Of a DNA stretch of 64,000 nucleotides, positions 14,933 to 24,380 are shown in pieces. The translations under genes were made by a program, and so were the position numbers. The notes beneath the pieces were generated by a model. That model made no database searches and was not told the origin of the DNA. It saw only the letters and a program-made list of their open reading frames with translations. The stretch comes from Candidatus Neomarinimicrobiota bacterium (GTDB lineage Bacteria > Fidelibacterota > UBA2242 > B5-G15), in NCBI GenBank assembly GCA_017656425.1, contig JACDNV010000002.1, positions 244,170 to 308,169 of the forward strand, written 5' to 3'. The number at the start of each line of letters is the position of its first letter. Position 1 is the stretch's first letter.

Positions 14933-16069
14933 ATGGGTGAATTTAGCCTGTTACGAGATTTTTTGAAAATCAAGACAAAGAGATTCCCTGTTACTACGGC
15001 CTACCTTACCAAGAATATTGTAGGGCGAGGGAAGATGAGTTATATGACGGAATTGAAGAAATTAATTCGGTACAAGCAAAATAAGTCCTATTATAGAGAG
15101 TTAAGTGAGGAGGAAAGGAATTTTGTTTCTCAAGATTTTGAAAGAATTTTAAAATTTGCAAATGAGGATTTTCCTATTAATGGCAAACTTACAAGTGTTT
15201 GTTTTTCTTCAGTAGGAGAAAACTTGTGGGAAGTGGTAAATTTTGATGTTCCATTTATGACAGAAGTAGAAGTTCAGCCTTTTGTATATATTAAGCCTTT
15301 AGCAAAATTGTACAGTCATTACAGGAATTATGGATTAGTATTGGTGGATAAAGCTAAAGCAAAAATATTTGAAAGAAGACTTGGTAGCAATATTGAGCAT
15401 TTCCAGGTAAGAAGTAATCAGGTAGAGTCTATTAAATATGGTGGTTATAAGGGTAGGGATGAAAGAAGCGTTGAGAGGAATATTCACAACATAATATTAG
15501 GTCATTACAAAGAGGTTTCCAAAAAGGTTTCTGAATTAGATAGCAAGTTGAATTTCAATTGGATTATACTTGGAGGACACAGAGATGTATTAAATGAGTT
15601 TAAAAAATATCTAAAAGATGACATCTTATGTAAAGTACTTGGTGAAATGATAATAGGCCCTGAAGTGCCTACTGACGATGCTTTCAAGAAAGTTGAATCG
15701 ATGGAGGATATTATAAAGGCTGAATATGAGAAAAGATTGATTCAAAAGGTGAGGGAACTATCAACAGAAAATTATGCTGTAGAGGGTATACAAGCTGTTA
15801 TTATTTCTAGCAGGAAAAGAGCAGTAAAAACACTTTTATTCGCAGAAGATTTTATTCAAAAGGGTCATTATTGTAAAGATTGTGGTTTAATTGATACCGG
15901 GGATGCTACTAAATGTCCCGATTGTGGTAATAACCTAATGATAACAAACGATGTAACAGAAAATTTGATACATTCCGTTCTGGAAAATGGTGGTAATATA
16001 GAAGTCATTGAGAAAGAAAAAGATAAAATCCCTGGAATAGCAGCAATTTTATATTTTCCAATTGTATAA
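14933..16069 (+). CDS. Bacterial archaeo-eukaryotic release factor-like protein (baeRF family 10 type)
   Basis: A 378-residue protein resembling archaeo-eukaryotic eRF1. Residues about 100-250 fit an eRF1 domain 2-like fold (GLVLVDKAKAKIFERRLG) with a glycine/arginine loop YGGYKGRDERSVERN in the position of the GGQ tip. Residues about 270-378 fit domain 3, with AVKTLLFAEDF and a zinc ribbon of two CxxC pairs (CKDC, CPDC). Bacterial homologues have been proposed to act in peptidyl-tRNA release or ribosome rescue; this is family inference. GGAGG at 14922 supports the start. It stands apart from its neighbours by gaps on both sides. Confidence 0.7.
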   Translation: MGEFSLLRDFLKIKTKRFPVTTAYLTKNIVGRGKMSYMTELKKLIRYKQNKSYYRELSEEERNFVSQDFERILKFANEDFPINGKLTSVCFSSVGENLWEVVNFDVPFMTEVEVQPFVYIKPLAKLYSHYRNYGLVLVDKAKAKIFERRLGSNIEHFQVRSNQVESIKYGGYKGRDERSVERNIHNIILGHYKEVSKKVSELDSKLNFNWIILGGHRDVLNEFKKYLKDDILCKVLGEMIIGPEVPTDDAFKKVESMEDIIKAEYEKRLIQKVRELSTENYAVEGIQAVIISSRKRAVKTLLFAEDFIQKGHYCKDCGLIDTGDATKCPDCGNNLMITNDVTENLIHSVLENGGNIEVIEKEKDKIPGIAAILYFPIV

Positions 16070-16135: not shown

Positions 16136-16164
16136 TTGACTAACAGGCATTAGTTAAATATATT
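16136..16164 (+). promoter_or_regulatory. Strong sigma-70-like promoter for the motor operon
   Basis: TTGACT at 16136-16141 and TATATT at 16159-16164 are separated by exactly 17 bases. Transcription would start about 16171, giving a leader of about 60 bases before the lipoprotein gene. All genes from 16231 to at least 24380 run in the same direction with small gaps, apart from one of 213 bases before 18126. Confidence 0.5.
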
Positions 16165-16230
16165 TACAGAAGCAAGGTTAGTTTTGAATTATGTTAATAA
16201 ACTTAAAAAATTTTCCGAAGGGTGGGAATA

Positions 16231-17151
16231 ATGAAACAAAAATTTATAATCATTCTATCCGCTTTTATATTTATAGTTTCCTATAGTTGCGGGATTTTTA
16301 AAGAGGTAAAAAGAGAAGAACCTGTTAAAGAGTTGCCAATAGAAGAAAAGGAAATTCAAGAGCCTACTGAAGAGACTACTCGCGTTGGGTTAAAAATTCC
16401 AGAGCAAGTTTCAGATAAAGAAAAAGAAGAAGTAATTAAGGAACTGTCTTTTGAAGTTAAAAAACTAACCGCAAAGGTCTCATCACTTGCTAACGATTTA
16501 AACGAATTAAAAGCAAGAGCTCAAATATGGCAGAATCCATTTTCTTTTTATGACAAAGAAATAATACTAACCAATGGGACATCTATTTTCGGGAAGATAA
16601 TATACCAAGATGATGAGATTATCAAAGTGGAGACACTTATTGGTTATCTGGTTGTAAAAAGAGATGAAATTGTAAGGATTGTGTCGAATACAGTAGCTCA
16701 GGCAACAGAATATGTAATTCCTGAAGAGGTAGAAAAACGAATGGAGTCTCAGGCCCCAACCACCCAGACGCAAACAGTCTTAATTCCTAAAACTCAAACT
16801 AAGGTTTCTGCTATAGGCACTGGACAGGCAAATTGTGTACTGATGGGATCAGTTAAAGAAAGAAAAACATCAACGGGTAACCTGGTTCTTTATGGAGAGG
16901 TTAAAAATATTGGGACAAGAAGAGCAGATTTTGTCAAGATTAATTTTGTTTTTCGTAGGGATTGGAGCGGAACAAAGGATATAAAAACGGTTTTTGTAGA
17001 AGGTTCTAGTTATACATTTAAAAAAACAGGGATTACTACCAGTAATTCACTTCAGCCCGGGGAAACTGGGAAGTTTGAGCTAATATTACCTAAAAATTTC
17101 GGGACATTTGTTAGCTATAGTTATAATATTGAATGGGAGTATTTTGATTAA
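16231..17151 (+). CDS. Exported lipoprotein-like protein with coiled coil and C-terminal FxLYD-type domain
   Basis: A 306-residue protein. A hydrophobic leader ends in SYSC (Cys20), a non-canonical lipobox, so it may be lipidated. A Glu/Lys-rich stretch and a short coiled coil (about 65-95) follow, then a small beta domain (IILTNGTSIFGKIIY...YLVVKRDEIVRIV, about 108-150). A C-terminal beta-sandwich (about 195-306) has LVLYGEVKNIGT, typical of FxLYD-type domains. The true start is ATG 16231 with GGGTGGGA just upstream. It shares one base with the next gene and heads the motor operon, so it may be an envelope anchor; that role is inference. Confidence 0.65.
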   Translation: MKQKFIIILSAFIFIVSYSCGIFKEVKREEPVKELPIEEKEIQEPTEETTRVGLKIPEQVSDKEKEEVIKELSFEVKKLTAKVSSLANDLNELKARAQIWQNPFSFYDKEIILTNGTSIFGKIIYQDDEIIKVETLIGYLVVKRDEIVRIVSNTVAQATEYVIPEEVEKRMESQAPTTQTQTVLIPKTQTKVSAIGTGQANCVLMGSVKERKTSTGNLVLYGEVKNIGTRRADFVKINFVFRRDWSGTKDIKTVFVEGSSYTFKKTGITTSNSLQPGETGKFELILPKNFGTFVSYSYNIEWEYFD

Positions 17152-17912
17152 TGAATAGAATATATTTATTAATTGTAATGATAATATTTGTTTGTTTAAG
17201 TAATCTACAAGCTCAGGATGTAAATAAAGAGCTTGAAGAGAAAAGAAAAGAGCTTGAAAAAAAGGCTGTAGAAATTCTTGATTTACGCTCTGCTCTTATA
17301 ATCCAGCAAGCAGAGCTTAATCAGTTAAGGAAAGAACTTGAAAAGTTGAGAATTCAAAATGAGATTTTAAATGACTCGCTAAGGAGGAAGGAATCAAAGA
17401 TTAAAAATCTCGAAGAGCTTCTAAAAACAGTAAAAGAAGATAAAGAGCTGTCCACGGCGATAATTAGGAATATAAGATCATCTGCAGATACTCTTTCAGA
17501 AGAAAAAAGTATAGTCGATTCTGTTTTGACCGATGAGGAGTATATTTCAATATATAATAATGCTCTATCGATGTACTTTAATAAAGAGTATAGAGCCAGT
17601 ATGGATAAATTTGAATATCTTGTGGTTGCTAACAGTAAGCATCCGTTAGCCGATAATGCTCAATACTGGTTGGGAGAATGCTATTATTCAATGGAAAGGT
17701 ACCAAGATGCTATTGAAGCATTTCAGAGGGTATTAGATCTTGGTGATGGTAATAAGTCTGATGCAGCTATTTTTAAGATCGGATTGAGCTATCTAAAACT
17801 TGGGAATAAGATAAAAGCACATGAGATATTTGTAGATCTTGAAAAGAGATATCCTGACAGTGAACTGGTTGAAAAAGCAAAAGAGTATATGAAATTAGAT
17901 ACAAGTTTTTAA
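17151..17912 (+). CDS. CpoB/YbgF-like periplasmic coiled-coil TPR protein
   Basis: A 253-residue protein with a signal peptide (cleavage near LQAQ), an N-terminal coiled coil (about 24-105, heptads rich in Glu/Lys/Leu) and C-terminal TPR repeats (about 128-250) with ADNAQYWLGECYYSMERY, the pattern of CpoB/YbgF. In E. coli CpoB works with Tol-Pal, an ion-driven MotAB/ExbBD-family system, in coordinating envelope constriction. Here no tol or pal genes are adjacent, and MotAB lies two genes downstream. Its ATG overlaps the upstream stop by one base. Confidence 0.75.
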   Translation: MNRIYLLIVMIIFVCLSNLQAQDVNKELEEKRKELEKKAVEILDLRSALIIQQAELNQLRKELEKLRIQNEILNDSLRRKESKIKNLEELLKTVKEDKELSTAIIRNIRSSADTLSEEKSIVDSVLTDEEYISIYNNALSMYFNKEYRASMDKFEYLVVANSKHPLADNAQYWLGECYYSMERYQDAIEAFQRVLDLGDGNKSDAAIFKIGLSYLKLGNKIKAHEIFVDLEKRYPDSELVEKAKEYMKLDTSF

Positions 17913-18125
17913 TGATACTGTTTACCGGCATTAAATATTGTTATGAAAATCTTGAGGAATATATAATTCCATATAATAAATGCATTGTTTTAACAAATTG
18001 GTGCTATTATATATTTCAAAGTCTCACTTTTTATCACAATTTAACTTATAAGTTTAACAAAAGTGAAAATTTTACAATTGGAAAAGTGAAAAAAGAATAG
18101 TTAATTATGTACTGAGGGAACAGGA

Positions 18126-19472
18126 ATGATATTGAGGAAAACAATATACCCTATTGTAATACTCATTTTGGAAATGGTCTGTCTGGCGTTTACTAGAGGC
18201 ATAACCAGAGTTTCATTTACAAGACCTAGTTATATGATGAAAATTCCAATCAGTAGTAAAGAAATAAGCCCGTATGTATTTAGAACGGGATTATCAACAG
18301 AGATGTTTGATTTTTCCGACATAGTTGTAAATACAGAAGCTGTATATTTTGAGACAGATTTGACAGCATCTTTTAAATTAGGAGTGACTACCATTCAGGG
18401 TGTTGCTGGTGATTCGCCAGTAGAGATTGGTTTGCATTTTCAGAAAAAGTTTTTTGAATATAGCGATGTAAGTTTTTCTGCTGGATTATATGATTTTGTA
18501 TTTCAGCAAGGTAGCAGTAAGATGTCCCTTGATACCAGAAGTTTATCTCTTTTCGGTGTTTTAGGAAATGAGAAAGAATTTGAAAATTATAAGCTAAATA
18601 CTTATATAGGTATAGGCACAGGTGGATTTTCAAAAGAGAATGTGAGGAGTGATTCAGCCCGTGGTAATCAACTTGGTTTTTTTGCAGGAATAATGTTGAA
18701 TACATCTGCAATGCAGGAAAAGGGTGGTATTGATTTCATTGCAGAGTATGATGGGACAGGTGTAAATATGGGAATTAGAGTACCAATTGGTTCAAATTAT
18801 AAAATTAATTTTGGTGTAATACATATGGAGAATCTTCCGAAATTTGGGAAGTCCTACCGATGGGATTCTCCAGCTTTTGTTGTGAGTCTTGATTTTGTAG
18901 TTCCCAGAATTAAGGAAATAAAAACCGAAAAACCTGGAATGCAGGTTCCTCAGAGGCAATCTACTATTAAGGAATTAAATGCTCAGGAGTATTATGAACA
19001 AAAGATAGATTCGATATTAAAAGCATGCGATATCATTATAGCCGGTTTGCGAGATTCAATAGAATTTTATGAAAGTCAAATTAAATATTTGTCTAATGAA
19101 ATTACATACTTGAGGCAGAAAATTGGTGTATTAGAGGATTCTGTTAGAAGTGTTAAACTGGCAAAATATGCAATGGAGAGAAATACCAATATGGCATTGA
19201 GGCATCTATCTAAATCACTGAGGTACTTTTATGAGGGGGATTATATAGGAGCGTTGAAGGAGGTTGAAAAAGCGATTGAATTAAATCCAAATCTTGCTCT
19301 TGCTTATGCAAGAAGGGGATCGATTTATTACAAGTTAGGCGATATAGAAAGGGCAACTTTAAACTGGAATCTTGCCCTAAGGCTTGACCCGGATTATGAA
19401 GATGTGAGGAATATTTTAAAGGCAATGAGCGAGTATAGATTAAAAAGTGTGAAAGGATTGGGGAAGGAATAG
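18126..19472 (+). CDS. Exported protein with beta-rich N-terminus, coiled coil and TPR tail
   Basis: A 448-residue protein with three regions: signal peptide (about 1-24), a beta-rich segment (about 30-265) with alternating strands and GIGTGGF/GFFAGIML hairpins that suggest an outer-membrane barrel, a coiled coil (about 285-350, YYEQKIDSILKAC...) and a TPR tail (about 355-440, LRYFYEGDYIGALKEVEKAIELNPN). GAGGGAACAGGA upstream supports the ATG. It ends eight bases before motA. I do not know a named family with this arrangement. It could link an outer-membrane element to periplasmic partners of the motor. Confidence 0.65.
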   Translation: MILRKTIYPIVILILEMVCLAFTRGITRVSFTRPSYMMKIPISSKEISPYVFRTGLSTEMFDFSDIVVNTEAVYFETDLTASFKLGVTTIQGVAGDSPVEIGLHFQKKFFEYSDVSFSAGLYDFVFQQGSSKMSLDTRSLSLFGVLGNEKEFENYKLNTYIGIGTGGFSKENVRSDSARGNQLGFFAGIMLNTSAMQEKGGIDFIAEYDGTGVNMGIRVPIGSNYKINFGVIHMENLPKFGKSYRWDSPAFVVSLDFVVPRIKEIKTEKPGMQVPQRQSTIKELNAQEYYEQKIDSILKACDIIIAGLRDSIEFYESQIKYLSNEITYLRQKIGVLEDSVRSVKLAKYAMERNTNMALRHLSKSLRYFYEGDYIGALKEVEKAIELNPNLALAYARRGSIYYKLGDIERATLNWNLALRLDPDYEDVRNILKAMSEYRLKSVKGLGKE

Positions 19473-19479
19473 GTAAAAG

Positions 19480-20274
19480 ATGGACATTGCAAGTTTATTA
19501 GGGATAATAGCAGGTACTGGATTAATTTTAATGGGGATATATCAATTAACCCCTGATTTTATAATTTTCGTGAGTTTACCCAGCTTTTTAATTGTAGTAG
19601 GCGGATCTCTTGCTGCAACGATGATAAGTTTCTCAATGGGAGAAGTGTTGGGGATTATTAAGTCTGCAATTGCTGTTTTCCGTAGGGAAAAAATAAAGAT
19701 GGCGGCAATAGTAGATACCATTGTAGAACTTGCACCTATAGCTAGAAGAAGCATGCAGGATTTGGAGAAGGAGATTCCCCGTATTTCAGAACCATTTTTA
19801 AGAGACGGAATTCAGATGATTGTTGATGGGTATAACAGAAATGAAATCAGAACAATACTCGAAACGAGAATCATAAATAGGGCACAGAGAGAGAAGGCTG
19901 AAGCTAATGTTTTGAAAACAATGGGTAAATTTTCACCTGCTTTCGGTATGATCGGGACACTAATTGGACTCGTAGTTATGTTATATGGTATGAGTGAATT
20001 TTCTGCGGCCGGTGAGGACCCAATGAAAACTCTTGGTGCAGGTATGGGTGCTGCATTGATAACCACATTTTACGGAGTGATATTAGCTAATTTAATTTTT
20101 AATCCAATGGCTGTAAAATTCGAATCGAGAATTGAGAAAAGAAATATGCTTCAGAGGATGCTTATAGAGGGTATATTGCTTTTACATGAAAGAAAACACC
20201 CTCTTATTATCAGGGAAAGATTAAATTCTTATCTTAGACCGAGGGAATGGAAAAGAGAAGAGGAAGCAAGATAA
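19480..20274 (+). CDS. motA: Flagellar-type stator protein MotA
   Basis: A 264-residue inner-membrane stator subunit with four membrane helices and a large cytoplasmic loop between helices 2 and 3. Pro153 (FSPAFGMIGTLIGLVV) and Pro209 (FNPMAV) match the two functionally important prolines of E. coli MotA (Pro173, Pro222), and the loop keeps the charged ARRSMQDLEKE segment that in flagella faces FliG. With MotB it forms the ion channel converting ion flow into rotation. The gene is followed four bases later by motB. Its similarity is to flagellar MotA/PomA rather than TolQ/ExbB. Confidence 0.93.
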   Translation: MDIASLLGIIAGTGLILMGIYQLTPDFIIFVSLPSFLIVVGGSLAATMISFSMGEVLGIIKSAIAVFRREKIKMAAIVDTIVELAPIARRSMQDLEKEIPRISEPFLRDGIQMIVDGYNRNEIRTILETRIINRAQREKAEANVLKTMGKFSPAFGMIGTLIGLVVMLYGMSEFSAAGEDPMKTLGAGMGAALITTFYGVILANLIFNPMAVKFESRIEKRNMLQRMLIEGILLLHERKHPLIIRERLNSYLRPREWKREEEAR

Positions 20275-20277
20275 AAA

Positions 20278-20955
20278 ATGTATGAAGGTAATGATATAGA
20301 GAAATTTGCGGTTGAAAAACCAGCTGAGGAGGAGCAGCCGTGGTTATTGACCTACGGTGATATGATGACTCTTCTTCTGACGTTTTTTGTTCTATTGTTT
20401 TCAATGTCTACAATTGATCCTGTTAAGCTTGAGATGTTCAGTAATTCCGTTGGTAAGGCACTTGGAATAAAAAAGGCAAAGACATATTCTTTAAGTGAGA
20501 TTTATCGAGAAGTTGTTCGAGTTGTTGAAGAAGAAAATTTAAAGAAAGTAATTGAAGTGCAGACGAGTGCACGTGGAGTAGCAATAAAAATACCGAGTGA
20601 GATAAGCTTTGAATCGGGTTCAGCAGAGCTTGATCCAAGAATTTATCCAATTTTAAATAAAATTGAGCCCATGATGAGACGGTCTGTATTCCCTATTGCT
20701 ATTGAGGGGCATACAGATAATGTTCCAATTTCGTCGGGAAATTATCCATCAAACTGGGAGCTTTCATCAGCTCGAGCTTGTAGAGTTGTAAGATATTATA
20801 TTAATAGGGGATTGGATCCTTCGCGTTTCCGTGCAATTGGATATGCATCTACACGTCCACGTGCCCCAGGGAGAACGGTTGAAGAAGCGAATGATACTCC
20901 CCAAAAAAGGGCTCAAAATAGAAGAGTTGAGATTGTATTTTTAACAGTTGAATGA
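20278..20955 (+). CDS. motB: Flagellar-type stator protein MotB with peptidoglycan-binding domain
   Basis: A 225-residue protein with one membrane helix carrying the ion-binding Asp28 (TYGDMMTLLLTFFVLLFSM, equivalent to E. coli Asp32), a short plug/linker, and an OmpA-like domain (about 95-222) with IEGHTDNVPISSG and RAQNRRVEIVFL, which grips peptidoglycan and immobilises the stator. All key residues for ion-driven torque are present. Directly after motA and 16 bases before the FliF-like gene. Confidence 0.94.
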   Translation: MYEGNDIEKFAVEKPAEEEQPWLLTYGDMMTLLLTFFVLLFSMSTIDPVKLEMFSNSVGKALGIKKAKTYSLSEIYREVVRVVEEENLKKVIEVQTSARGVAIKIPSEISFESGSAELDPRIYPILNKIEPMMRRSVFPIAIEGHTDNVPISSGNYPSNWELSSARACRVVRYYINRGLDPSRFRAIGYASTRPRAPGRTVEEANDTPQKRAQNRRVEIVFLTVE

Positions 20956-20971
20956 TAAAGGAGTAAATAAA

Positions 20972-22243
20972 ATGAGGTATCTAAAAATTTTAATAGTAGT
21001 TTTTGTATTTGTGCCATTTATTCTACCTCAGGTCTCACATTTATCTTACTATTCACAAAAAATTATGCTTGAGAATGCAATAAAAGATAGAATAAACGAA
21101 GCTTTAAATAAAATTCTTGAGGATATAAAATTTGTTGTAGATGTAAATATTGAATTGGATTACCAAACCAGTCAGCAAGAGATTCGGTCAAAAGAAGAGG
21201 TTGGTGAAAAGCCTACTACCGAAAGCAAATATTTACCTTTACCAGGATTTGAAACTCCCAGTGATCTTACTATAGAGGAACAGCAAGAAGCCACCAGTGT
21301 AGAACAACAAAAAACAGTTACACCTCCTTCTGGTGTGCCTATTATAAAAAAGCAAACAATAAATATTATACTGGAAGAAGGGATATCGTCAGAACTGATA
21401 CAAAGTGTCAGAGAGGTTGCAAGCGTTGCAGCACATCTTGATAAAACAAGGGGTGATGAGCTAATTATAAAAACAGCCCCATTTACAAAACAGAAAGGCG
21501 ATGCTGAGGCGCTGATTTTGAAAAATATAGCAGAAAAGATAGATGAAATAGATAAAAGGCAAAAAGATATTGAAGGAAAAGCGAGACTTGAGGAGGAGAA
21601 AAGGAGAGAAAGGGAAAGGATAGTACAGGATTCTTTAAGAATAGCACAATTGGAGGAAGAGTTACAAAGGCTTAAAGAAATATTGGCAACGCAACAGTTG
21701 ACTGAGGCACAAAGGAGGATTACAGAGGATCAGGCAACAGAGAGGGAGCGACAAATTGATACATTGAAGGCACAGCTTGAGGAAAGTAATCGGAAGCTAC
21801 AAGAACTTGAAAAAAGTTTGGCCGGGACTCCGCCCAGAGGGTTCTTATCTCTGGGTAATAATTATTTGATGTACTTAATATTAGGTGTATTAGTATTACT
21901 ATTGATTATAGCACTTATATTGATTCTTACAATGAGACGTTCTGTTAAACCAAATTCAGTGGTAACTGAAAGGGTTGAAGAGCCAGTTGTTATAAAACCC
22001 CAGTCCAAACAACAGGTAGTTACCCAACCTCAGATAGAGGTAGAAAAAGCTGTAAATGAAACTAAACTAAGGCAAGAAGAGGAGCGTTTGAAAAAACTTG
22101 AAGAGTTGGAGCAGCAGAAAGAAGAGTTAAAATCGTTGAAACAGTCGGTCATTTCTATGAGTGTTGGGCAACCGGATGCGGCTACAAGAATATTAAGGGA
22201 ATGGTTAAAAGTTTCAAAGTCAACAGAATCTGAAGAAGAATGA
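20972..22243 (+). CDS. Shortened FliF-like rotor ring protein with periplasmic coiled coil
   Basis: A 423-residue protein. A hydrophobic N-terminus (4-19) is followed by a region like the FliF third ring-building motif (about 27-172): SYYSQKIMLENAIKDRINEA, a Gln/Glu/Pro-rich insertion with SGVP, and VREVASVAAHLDKTRGDELI. Then come a coiled coil (about 178-283), a membrane helix (about 298-320), a second coiled coil (362-392) and a C-terminal QPDAATRILREWL like the FliG-binding tail of FliF. The first two ring-building motifs of flagellar FliF (about 560 residues) are absent. ATG 20972 has AAGGAG eight bases upstream. Confidence 0.82.
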   Translation: MRYLKILIVVFVFVPFILPQVSHLSYYSQKIMLENAIKDRINEALNKILEDIKFVVDVNIELDYQTSQQEIRSKEEVGEKPTTESKYLPLPGFETPSDLTIEEQQEATSVEQQKTVTPPSGVPIIKKQTINIILEEGISSELIQSVREVASVAAHLDKTRGDELIIKTAPFTKQKGDAEALILKNIAEKIDEIDKRQKDIEGKARLEEEKRRERERIVQDSLRIAQLEEELQRLKEILATQQLTEAQRRITEDQATERERQIDTLKAQLEESNRKLQELEKSLAGTPPRGFLSLGNNYLMYLILGVLVLLLIIALILILTMRRSVKPNSVVTERVEEPVVIKPQSKQQVVTQPQIEVEKAVNETKLRQEEERLKKLEELEQQKEELKSLKQSVISMSVGQPDAATRILREWLKVSKSTESEEE

Positions 22244-22262
22244 AAATATTTTGGAGGATATA

Positions 22263-23195
22263 ATGGCTGAAGAGAAGGTTTATGATGGTATTGATAAAGT
22301 AGCGATTTTATTTAAAACGCTAGGCTTTCATCTGGCGGCACAGCTTTTTAAAGGGATATCACCACAGGATTTGCATAGAATAAAGCTGCGTATGGAGGCA
22401 ATAGGGGAAGTACCTTTTAAAGTGAAAAGGTCAATTCTTGAAGAATTTTATGTTACATTCATCCAGGAGAAAGTAAAGCCAGCGGGTAAGGAGACAAGAA
22501 AACCTTTTGAATTCCTTGAGAGGTTAACTGATGAACAAGTTGCTTATCTAATTTCCAATGAACCACCGAGAATAATGGCTTTGACAATTGCACAGCTGGA
22601 TGTCGATAGACAATCAAAAGTTATACAATTACTCGATCCTACCATACAACCAAAGGTGTTGACTGAGATGGGAAATCTTGACGATATTCCCCTTGAGGGT
22701 GTTGTTAGTATAGCGTCTGAGTTGAAGGAAAAAGCCAATTTTCTGCCCAAGGAATCTGAATTTTCCAGAGGTGGTGGAAAGAGTGTCGCTGGTATTTTAT
22801 CCCGTTTGAGACCAAGTGATGAGAAAAGATTTCTGGAATATCTTGAGAAGGAAGCTCCTGAACTTGTCAAAGAAGTAAAAAGGTATTATATAACTTTTGA
22901 AGATCTCGTGAAATTGCCATCAGGTATTCTGGCAGATGTTTTGAAGTCTGTCGAGGTCTCTGATATTGCTTATGCACTTAAGGGGCAGCCAGATAATATT
23001 CAGGAAAAGTTTATAAACGTATTGCCCCAAAGAACCAGGATAATCCTTGAAGACGAAATGAAGCTTATTGAGGGACCACAGCCCAGGAGAAAAGTAGAAG
23101 CTGCTCAAAAAAAGATTGTAGATAAAGCAAGAGAGCTTGAGCGAGAAGGCCGATTTAGTCTGCAGGATCTGTTAGAAGAAGACGTTATAGAATAA
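22263..23195 (+). CDS. fliG: FliG-like rotor protein with torque-helix charges
   Basis: A 310-residue three-domain FliG homologue. Residues 1-75 match FliG-N, which binds the FliF tail; 80-160 match the middle domain, with NEPPRIMALTIAQL replacing the canonical EHPQ form; 175-300 match the C-terminal domain. Aligning by eye with E. coli FliG, Lys240, Arg257, Asp264 and Glu265 correspond to Lys264, Arg281, Asp288 and Asp289; the Arg297 position is shifted (Pro274/Arg275). So the stator-facing surface looks functional. ATG 22263 is chosen because GGAGG lies five bases upstream. No fliM or fliN follows. Confidence 0.88.
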   Translation: MAEEKVYDGIDKVAILFKTLGFHLAAQLFKGISPQDLHRIKLRMEAIGEVPFKVKRSILEEFYVTFIQEKVKPAGKETRKPFEFLERLTDEQVAYLISNEPPRIMALTIAQLDVDRQSKVIQLLDPTIQPKVLTEMGNLDDIPLEGVVSIASELKEKANFLPKESEFSRGGGKSVAGILSRLRPSDEKRFLEYLEKEAPELVKEVKRYYITFEDLVKLPSGILADVLKSVEVSDIAYALKGQPDNIQEKFINVLPQRTRIILEDEMKLIEGPQPRRKVEAAQKKIVDKARELEREGRFSLQDLLEEDVIE

Positions 23196-23237
23196 TCTAT
23201 TTTTTATTCATAAATATAATAGGATTGTGGGATATTA

Positions 23238-24380
23238 ATGAGATTGAAGACTGTTTTATATGTATTTATTAATATAATCATACTTTATAGACTTGTGAAC
23301 TCAAATGAGTTAATTGAAGATAATACCGACGAGATACTAGAAGGCGTAAAATCAATATATAGACTTGACTATAATAGGTCTTATGAAATTTTTCTGGAAA
23401 ATTTTGAAACCCATCCATTATCACCATTTGGGTTAATAGCTGTAGAGTGGTTGAAAAACCAACAGATTGAATCCATGAAAAGAGCAAATGACAAACTCGA
23501 ACAGGACATAAAAAGAGTCGCTTCTTATTATAAAGAGAAATTAGAAAATAATAGAGAAGATTATTATAGTTTGTTCTATTATGGATTGACTCTGGGATTA
23601 AAAGCAAGATTATCGCTTGCAAAAAAGGATTGGCTTGGGATTCTAATAAATGGATATAAAAGTGTGAAATATATGAAGAGAGCTATAGATAATATTAAAG
23701 ATGATTATGATGTATATCTACCTGTAGGTCTATTTAGTTATTATGTCGGAATATCTTCTTCTTATATGAAAATTGCTTCTTACATATTAGATATTGCAGG
23801 TTCAAAGGAAGAGGGATTAGAATATATGAAATTGACAGCTGATAATGGTAAATACGGGAAATATGAAGCTCAGGGAATTCTTGCTTTTGTATATTTATAT
23901 ATTGAGGGCAATTATAATGAATCATTAAAATATTCTAGGCTATTATCAGAAGAATTTGACGAAAATCCGTACTATAAGTATCTTATGGCAGAGGCATATT
24001 TAGAGATAGGCCAACTAGATAAGGTAATAGAATTAACTAAGGGAATCGAAAAATATTTGCCCAATCTAAATAACAGAGTCAAAAGGGAAAACGAATTTCG
24101 CTATAATCTTCTCAAGGGTAGTATATACCTTTATACGAACCAGTTGTATGACTCAGAGAAATTTTTAACGAAATGTTTAAATTTTGACGATTTTGATCTG
24201 GATTATGAACTTGGGAATTTGTATTTAAGGCTTGGTTTTTTATATGACATGTTGGGAAAGCGTACTAATGCAAAATTCTGGTATCGAAAGGCAATTGAAT
24301 CTGATAATAGAAGTATTACAGTTAAGAGGGCAAAATATTATTTGAATACTCCATTTAATTTAGAAAAAAATGGTGGATAG
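23238..24380 (+). CDS. Exported TPR-repeat protein downstream of the motor genes
   Basis: A 380-residue protein with a hydrophobic leader (TVLYVFINIIILY), then helical repeats over its whole length, including clear TPRs near the C-terminus (LYLRLGFLYDMLGKRTNAKFWYRKAI). The layout with two long helices near residues 105-180 recalls TTC39/Iml2-type TPR proteins, but the match is loose. It follows fliG by 42 bases and overlaps ispG by 11, so it may be the last member of the motor cassette or belong with ispG. Function unknown. Confidence 0.65.
   Translation: MRLKTVLYVFINIIILYRLVNSNELIEDNTDEILEGVKSIYRLDYNRSYEIFLENFETHPLSPFGLIAVEWLKNQQIESMKRANDKLEQDIKRVASYYKEKLENNREDYYSLFYYGLTLGLKARLSLAKKDWLGILINGYKSVKYMKRAIDNIKDDYDVYLPVGLFSYYVGISSSYMKIASYILDIAGSKEEGLEYMKLTADNGKYGKYEAQGILAFVYLYIEGNYNESLKYSRLLSEEFDENPYYKYLMAEAYLEIGQLDKVIELTKGIEKYLPNLNNRVKRENEFRYNLLKGSIYLYTNQLYDSEKFLTKCLNFDDFDLDYELGNLYLRLGFLYDMLGKRTNAKFWYRKAIESDNRSITVKRAKYYLNTPFNLEKNGG

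Follow-up and report, generated by a model that had tools for sequence, protein, structure and literature searches.

To our knowledge, FliF and FliG are otherwise regarded as parts of the flagellum. A review of MotAB-family motors lists MotAB, ExbBD, TolQR, AglRQS and GldLM, with FliF and FliG outside flagella going unmentioned in the part of its text considered here; the same part describes the AglRQS gliding motor of Myxococcus as a MotAB-family motor that acts on outer-membrane proteins across the cell wall (PMC9389320). Zorya ZorAB is reported to be a MotAB-family 5:2 motor that stands alone outside flagella (PMC11890865). Here, we describe a cassette in which MotA, MotB, a relative of FliF, and FliG are encoded together with outer-membrane proteins, and for which no description was found in the open-licence PMC literature (main texts). 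We consider it likely that this cassette specifies a non-flagellar, ion-driven rotary motor of the cell envelope, which lacks a switch and passes its torque to the outer membrane.

Gene content and layout of the cassette

The window, i.e., the whole 64,000-nt stretch of DNA that was analysed, is C2:244170-308169 of a 2.8-Mb genome that is 99.7% complete and belongs to the Neomarinimicrobiota (SAR406). The cassette occupies window positions 16231-23195 and runs in a single direction, encoding, by open reading frames (ORFs) and Pfam, a lipoprotein, a CpoB-like TPR protein, a barrel/coiled-coil/TPR protein, MotA, MotB, the FliF relative, and FliG, with the lipoprotein as the first gene of the conserved unit and FliG as the last. 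The features are as follows:

16136..16164, + strand, candidate promoter of the sigma-70 type 5' of the operon, agreeing with the consensus at 10/12 positions with a 17-nt spacer
16231..17151, + strand, lipoprotein that opens the conserved operon, with a lipobox-type signal peptide (SYSC), an Lpp-like coiled coil, and a C-terminal beta-rich domain (lipobox and C-terminal domain by sequence inspection)
17151..17912, + strand, exported coiled-coil and TPR protein of the CpoB/YbgF type (Pfam, neighbourhood comparison)
18126..19472, + strand, outer-membrane beta-barrel/helix/TPR protein, with a signal peptide, a barrel of ~12 strands, an 84-residue helix, and a C-terminal TPR
19480..20274, + strand, MotA-type stator subunit (Pfam MotA_ExbB 7.9e-28)
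20278..20955, + strand, MotB-type stator subunit, with a plug and a peptidoglycan-binding domain of the OmpA type (MotB_plug 2.8e-18, OmpA 2.5e-16)
20972..22243, + strand, minimal FliF, with a signal peptide, RBM3, coiled-coil stalk, one transmembrane (TM) helix, and FliG-binding C-tail
22251..23195, + strand, FliG with N, M, and C domains, likely start 22263 (FliG_C 1.6e-28, FliG_N 7.8e-14, FliG_M 8.2e-14)
23238..24380, + strand, exported TPR protein 3' of the cassette

A first-pass annotation, made from the sequence alone, had placed motA, motB, a fliF-like gene and a fliG-like gene side by side and co-directional, behind a good promoter and among exported coiled-coil/TPR proteins. The ORF list confirms the arrangement, with the four genes nearly contiguous at the positions above, and the neighbours are indeed lipoprotein, coiled-coil, and TPR proteins. 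The promoter fared less well: a promoter-like site does lie at 16136-16164, but such sites are only slightly over-represented (45 found versus 31 expected by chance), so we regard it as a weak candidate. The TPR gene at the 3' end falls outside the phylum-wide core, following the cassette only in the window and in some relatives of the same order. On the 5' side, window positions 14933-16069 encode a homologue of bacterial archaeo-eukaryotic release factor family 10 (baeRF); most loci of the order have it immediately 5' of the operon, and families f8 and f10 have it nearby.

Stator subunits and FliG

The proton-path residues of the stator subunits are conserved. The equivalents of MotA E98, P173, and P222 and of MotB D32 are invariant in the alignment of cassette sequences (21 of 21), and the peptidoglycan-binding motifs of MotB are retained; an arginine of cassette MotA, R89, is also invariant, near R90 but one alignment column off. 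Profile comparison placed cassette MotA with flagellar MotA (2.7e-67) far ahead of TolQ (5e-5). Aligned pairwise by BLAST with their flagellar counterparts in the window genome, cassette MotA is 39% identical, MotB 37%, and FliG 27%. A third MotAB-type pair, separate from the flagellar and cassette sets, adjoins eno in the window genome (L143:7765-9277, G000:C1), and in genome G036 such a pair, with two MotB-like genes, lies ~10 kb from the cassette (L156:4148-6358).

In FliG, whose FliG_N profile matches FliG_N chains in the PDB, the equivalent of the key torque lysine K264 is invariant (21 of 21 sequences) and that of R281 is arginine or lysine in the 21 compared. D288 persists in 15 of 21; about a quarter of the sequences have lost the acidic pair D288/D289, and all 21 have another residue in place of R297. 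The FliM-binding EHPQR motif is degraded, with only its E invariant across the 21 sequences. In the FliG tree, a branch with 100/100 support sets the cassette sequences apart from flagellar FliGs, including the copy in the same genome, and sequences from one family or order mostly cluster, as would be expected under old vertical inheritance. The tree gives neither the date nor the direction of the split, because long branches divide the clades and the sole outside row, E. coli, is itself long-branched. Some genomes of family f24 hold two cassette-type FliG genes (G145:C52 and C7; G165:C25 and C27), and perhaps two cassettes. Plasmid FliG homologues, among the matches listed, are ordinary flagellar FliG at ~27% identity.

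A cut-down FliF

The first-pass annotation had also called a FliF homologue, which in Pfam alone falls below the cut-off (PF08345, E = 0.015) but is recovered by profile search against PDB FliF (7.7e-7), by profile-profile comparison (3.6e-6), and by predicted fold. Pairwise BLAST with the flagellar FliF that the window genome also encodes gave no match; the kinship is visible by profiles and fold only. Structurally, the AlphaFold2 model (mean pLDDT 75, above 90 in the core of the ring domain) comprises an alpha-beta-beta-alpha-beta domain at residues 20-169, long helices at 177-285, a TM helix near 297-324 and, after it, two C-terminal helices. Foldseek of this model returned FliF for all of the best 16 PDB matches, nearly all of them S-ring/RBM3, and VIA-align superposed it on the FliF S-ring with Z 15.3 at 1.8 A over 101 residues. 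The stalk is a coiled coil of ~105 residues, the single TM helix spans ~291-327, and the N-terminus resembles a signal peptide more than TM1. RBM1 and RBM2 are absent, and the protein is not a full FliF with RBM1-3 and two TM helices. In flagella, these two domains surround the export gate, so their loss suits a machine without export.

The C-terminal tail was compared with the flagellar FliF tail using a profile of the latter. Run on 44 cassette tails, it scored up to 23 bits, against 8.0 bits for the best shuffled control, which most of the 44 outscored, and the best match was C-terminal in 43 of 44. Across families, the protein ranges from ~390 to 670 residues in length, with most of the variation in linkers and stalk.

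Proteins on the outer-membrane side

The AlphaFold2 model of the 18126-19472 protein has a mean pLDDT of 81 and a pTM of 0.52, and because of the latter, the arrangement of its barrel, helix, and TPR parts relative to one another is uncertain. Its best PDB matches in Foldseek were the 12-stranded barrels FapF and KdgM, and TPR proteins. By simple arithmetic, the predicted 84-residue helix, if straight, would measure ~12.6 nm, enough to reach deep into the periplasm. The CpoB-like gene is single in the window and often paired in relatives; a 214-bp gap at window 17912-18126 lies where many relatives hold the second copy.

Gene order and distribution across the phylum

The order lipoprotein, CpoB-like (one or two), barrel/TPR, MotA, MotB, FliF, FliG recurs in 20 genomes, which represent more than ten families and differ in what surrounds the cassette. 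A scan of genome contigs returned nothing with a single-sequence query and matches with an alignment query. Among the best 80 of 124 FliG-related loci, the barrel-MotA-MotB-FliF-FliG order holds wherever the contig permits; of the 47 loci in which the upstream end could be tested, 46 open the operon with a lipoprotein homologue. Nearly all of these best 80 loci are labelled Marinimicrobia/Neomarinimicrobiota (SAR406; Fidelibacterota), the exceptions being two labelled "bacterium", one "FCB group", and one short SAR86-labelled contig. The last (L141, JAKUUL010000067.1) is 4 kb long, carries a cassette FliG and part of FliF, and is probably misbinned.

Across the phylum, 171 of the 245 species genomes gave a FliG profile match. 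In 16 of them, every match was of the flagellar type, intermediate, or a fragment; without these, ~155 genomes carry cassette FliG by a hand count. FlhA is above cut-off in 42 of 245, of which ~31 also have the cassette, so that ~124 genomes carry the cassette but not FlhA; 22 of these reach 95% completeness or more (hand counts). As most genomes are drafts, some FlhA absences may be gaps. FliM/FliN (FliMN_C) domains, among 40 relatives, were found solely in FlhA-bearing genomes. The clearest case is G036, a single contig of 2,788,509 bp that carries the cassette and in which profile searches found neither FlhA nor FliM/N. Gene order around the four genes in clade members without flagella, a comparison suggested in the first pass, thus came out positive. 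The smallest genomes of the phylum (family f9, 0.7-1.0 Mb) gave no match to the cassette, which is therefore non-essential. One genome, 96% complete, encodes a flagellar-type FliG (G034:C13:22090-22743) and FliF as well (L145), and searches for FlhA and FliM/N detected neither there, reflecting either an assembly gap or partial loss. A link to peptidoglycan was considered separately and rejected: MraY is almost universal (226 of 245 genomes of the phylum), so cassette presence does not track loss of wall synthesis.

In the window genome, a complete flagellar cluster lies on a different contig from the cassette, C3 (at ~126.7-175 kb). Profile matches identify its FlhA and FliM/FliN-type genes, and its translated ORFs were read as FlhB, FliPQR, rod, hook, and chemotaxis genes. 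The first-pass annotation had noted that a full regulon elsewhere, with these four genes as its only motor parts, would make the locus an ordinary split one. A full regulon was found, but it owns MotA, MotB, FliF (534 aa), FliG, FliM, and FliN, so the cassette is a second, dedicated set. Together with synteny in genomes without FlhA, this supports the earlier suggestion of a stand-alone, non-flagellar, ion-driven trans-envelope motor.

Proposed machine and alternative explanations

We posit that MotA5MotB2 stators, anchored to peptidoglycan by MotB, would push a FliG ring beneath a ring of the FliF relative. The latter, having lost RBM1/RBM2, would retain only what a rotor needs, i.e., an RBM3 ring in the periplasm, a stalk of coiled coil, a single membrane helix, and the tail that binds FliG. 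With neither FliM/FliN nor the FliM-binding motif left, rotation should be switchless. The stalked RBM3 ring may then carry torque to the outer-membrane barrel with its ~12-nm helix and TPR domain, assisted by the CpoB-like TPR proteins and the lipoprotein, such that a component within or at the surface of the outer membrane would move relative to the cell wall. The genes, their domains and conserved residues, their synteny, and their presence without flagellar genes are observed; ring assembly, rotation, and coupling to the outer membrane we infer. On balance, we favour a new machine, old, phylum-wide, and independent of flagella, that would drive an outer-membrane assembly with the torque generation kept from a flagellar-type rotor and stator, having shed export gate, switch, and filament. 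Our guess as to the output is, tentatively, movement of the surface or outer membrane, then, less probably, envelope work of the Tol-Pal kind, with a type IX secretion system (T9SS) drive and anything else both unlikely to a similar degree.

What counts against a rotary motor is that FliG R297 is never kept, that the D288/D289 pair is lost in part of the sequences, and that the only cultured member of the phylum, Fidelibacter multiformis IA91 (genome 2.79 Mb), is described as non-motile (PMC11652737). The loss of certain torque residues would suit a complex that does not rotate, its parts kept for mechanosensing, as an ion channel, or as a static scaffold of the envelope; we find this improbable, since the MotA/MotB ion-path residues and FliG K264 stay invariant over deep divergence and a static scaffold would have no need of them. 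That the cassette is an alternative rotor and stator for the ordinary flagellum, in a split flagellar locus, is so improbable that we reject it: the window genome is flagellated, but contig C3 already holds a separate flagellar motor set, ~124 genomes have the cassette without FlhA, the FliF relative is without RBM1/RBM2, and single-contig G036 contradicts it directly.

Two other explanations concern the output. With the same motor as we propose, the cassette could be a Tol-Pal counterpart, in which an ion-driven motor of the inner membrane would act via the barrel, CpoB-like, and lipoprotein components to tether the outer membrane and to constrict or stabilise it. The CpoB-like TPR proteins and Lpp-like lipoprotein of the operon favour this, as do the non-motility of the cultured member, the pairing of the window genome's sole ExbB/TolQ-type gene with ExbD and TonB, and TolB itself, which is above cut-off in just 2 of 120 relatives and not in the window genome. 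A FliG/FliF rotor ring, however, exceeds what Tol needs, a few cassette carriers (G004, G008, G022) have long TolB-like matches, and some genomes are without both TolB and cassette; we rate this output as rather unlikely. Less plausible again is that the cassette drives the T9SS, standing in for GldLM in a SprA-bearing phylum. The translocon protein SprA is present in 40 of 41 genomes (the window genome, G000:C8:82593-88520, and 39 of 40 relatives), unlinked to the cassette, while GldM matched in 0 of 41, in a search without a positive control in which no control genome matched either, and Por-type sorting domains have been reported in SAR406 (PMC5596340). Yet SprA also occurs in G027, G031, and G040, where no cassette FliG was found, and the third MotAB pair is another candidate drive.

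If the proposed rotary envelope motor is real, a flagellar rotor-stator module can work independently of type III export, a point of relevance to the origin of flagella. This phylum carries FliF/FliG and MotAB largely without flagella, and the question would become what use SAR406 cells, which abound in the dark ocean, make of the set; a single-contig genome that carries the cassette without flagellum genes makes the proposal testable.

Comparison with known systems

Compared with the bacterial flagellar motor, the cassette has a homologous stator, MS-ring protein (RBM3 and FliG-binding tail), and FliG, with ion-path and main torque residues kept, but has no FliM/FliN, export apparatus, rod, hook, or filament; its FliF is an RBM3 on a coiled-coil stalk, and its genes lie in a fixed operon with an outer-membrane barrel, a lipoprotein, and CpoB-like proteins. 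In its manner of working, it may be likened to GldLM, the motor of type IX secretion and gliding, as an ion-driven rotary motor without a flagellum that is coupled to the outer membrane, whereas its parts are true MotA/MotB/FliF/FliG homologues and GldM was not detected (in the uncontrolled search). With Tol-Pal, it shares a MotAB-family motor, a CpoB-like protein, and an outer-membrane lipoprotein, but its MotA is nearer to flagellar MotA than to TolQ by the profile values above, FliF and FliG are present, and the operon is without TolA, TolB, and Pal. For AglRQS, a FliF or FliG rotor goes unmentioned in the part of the review cited (PMC9389320). Zorya, finally, serves anti-phage defence, whereas the cassette has FliF/FliG as its rotor and envelope proteins as its partners.
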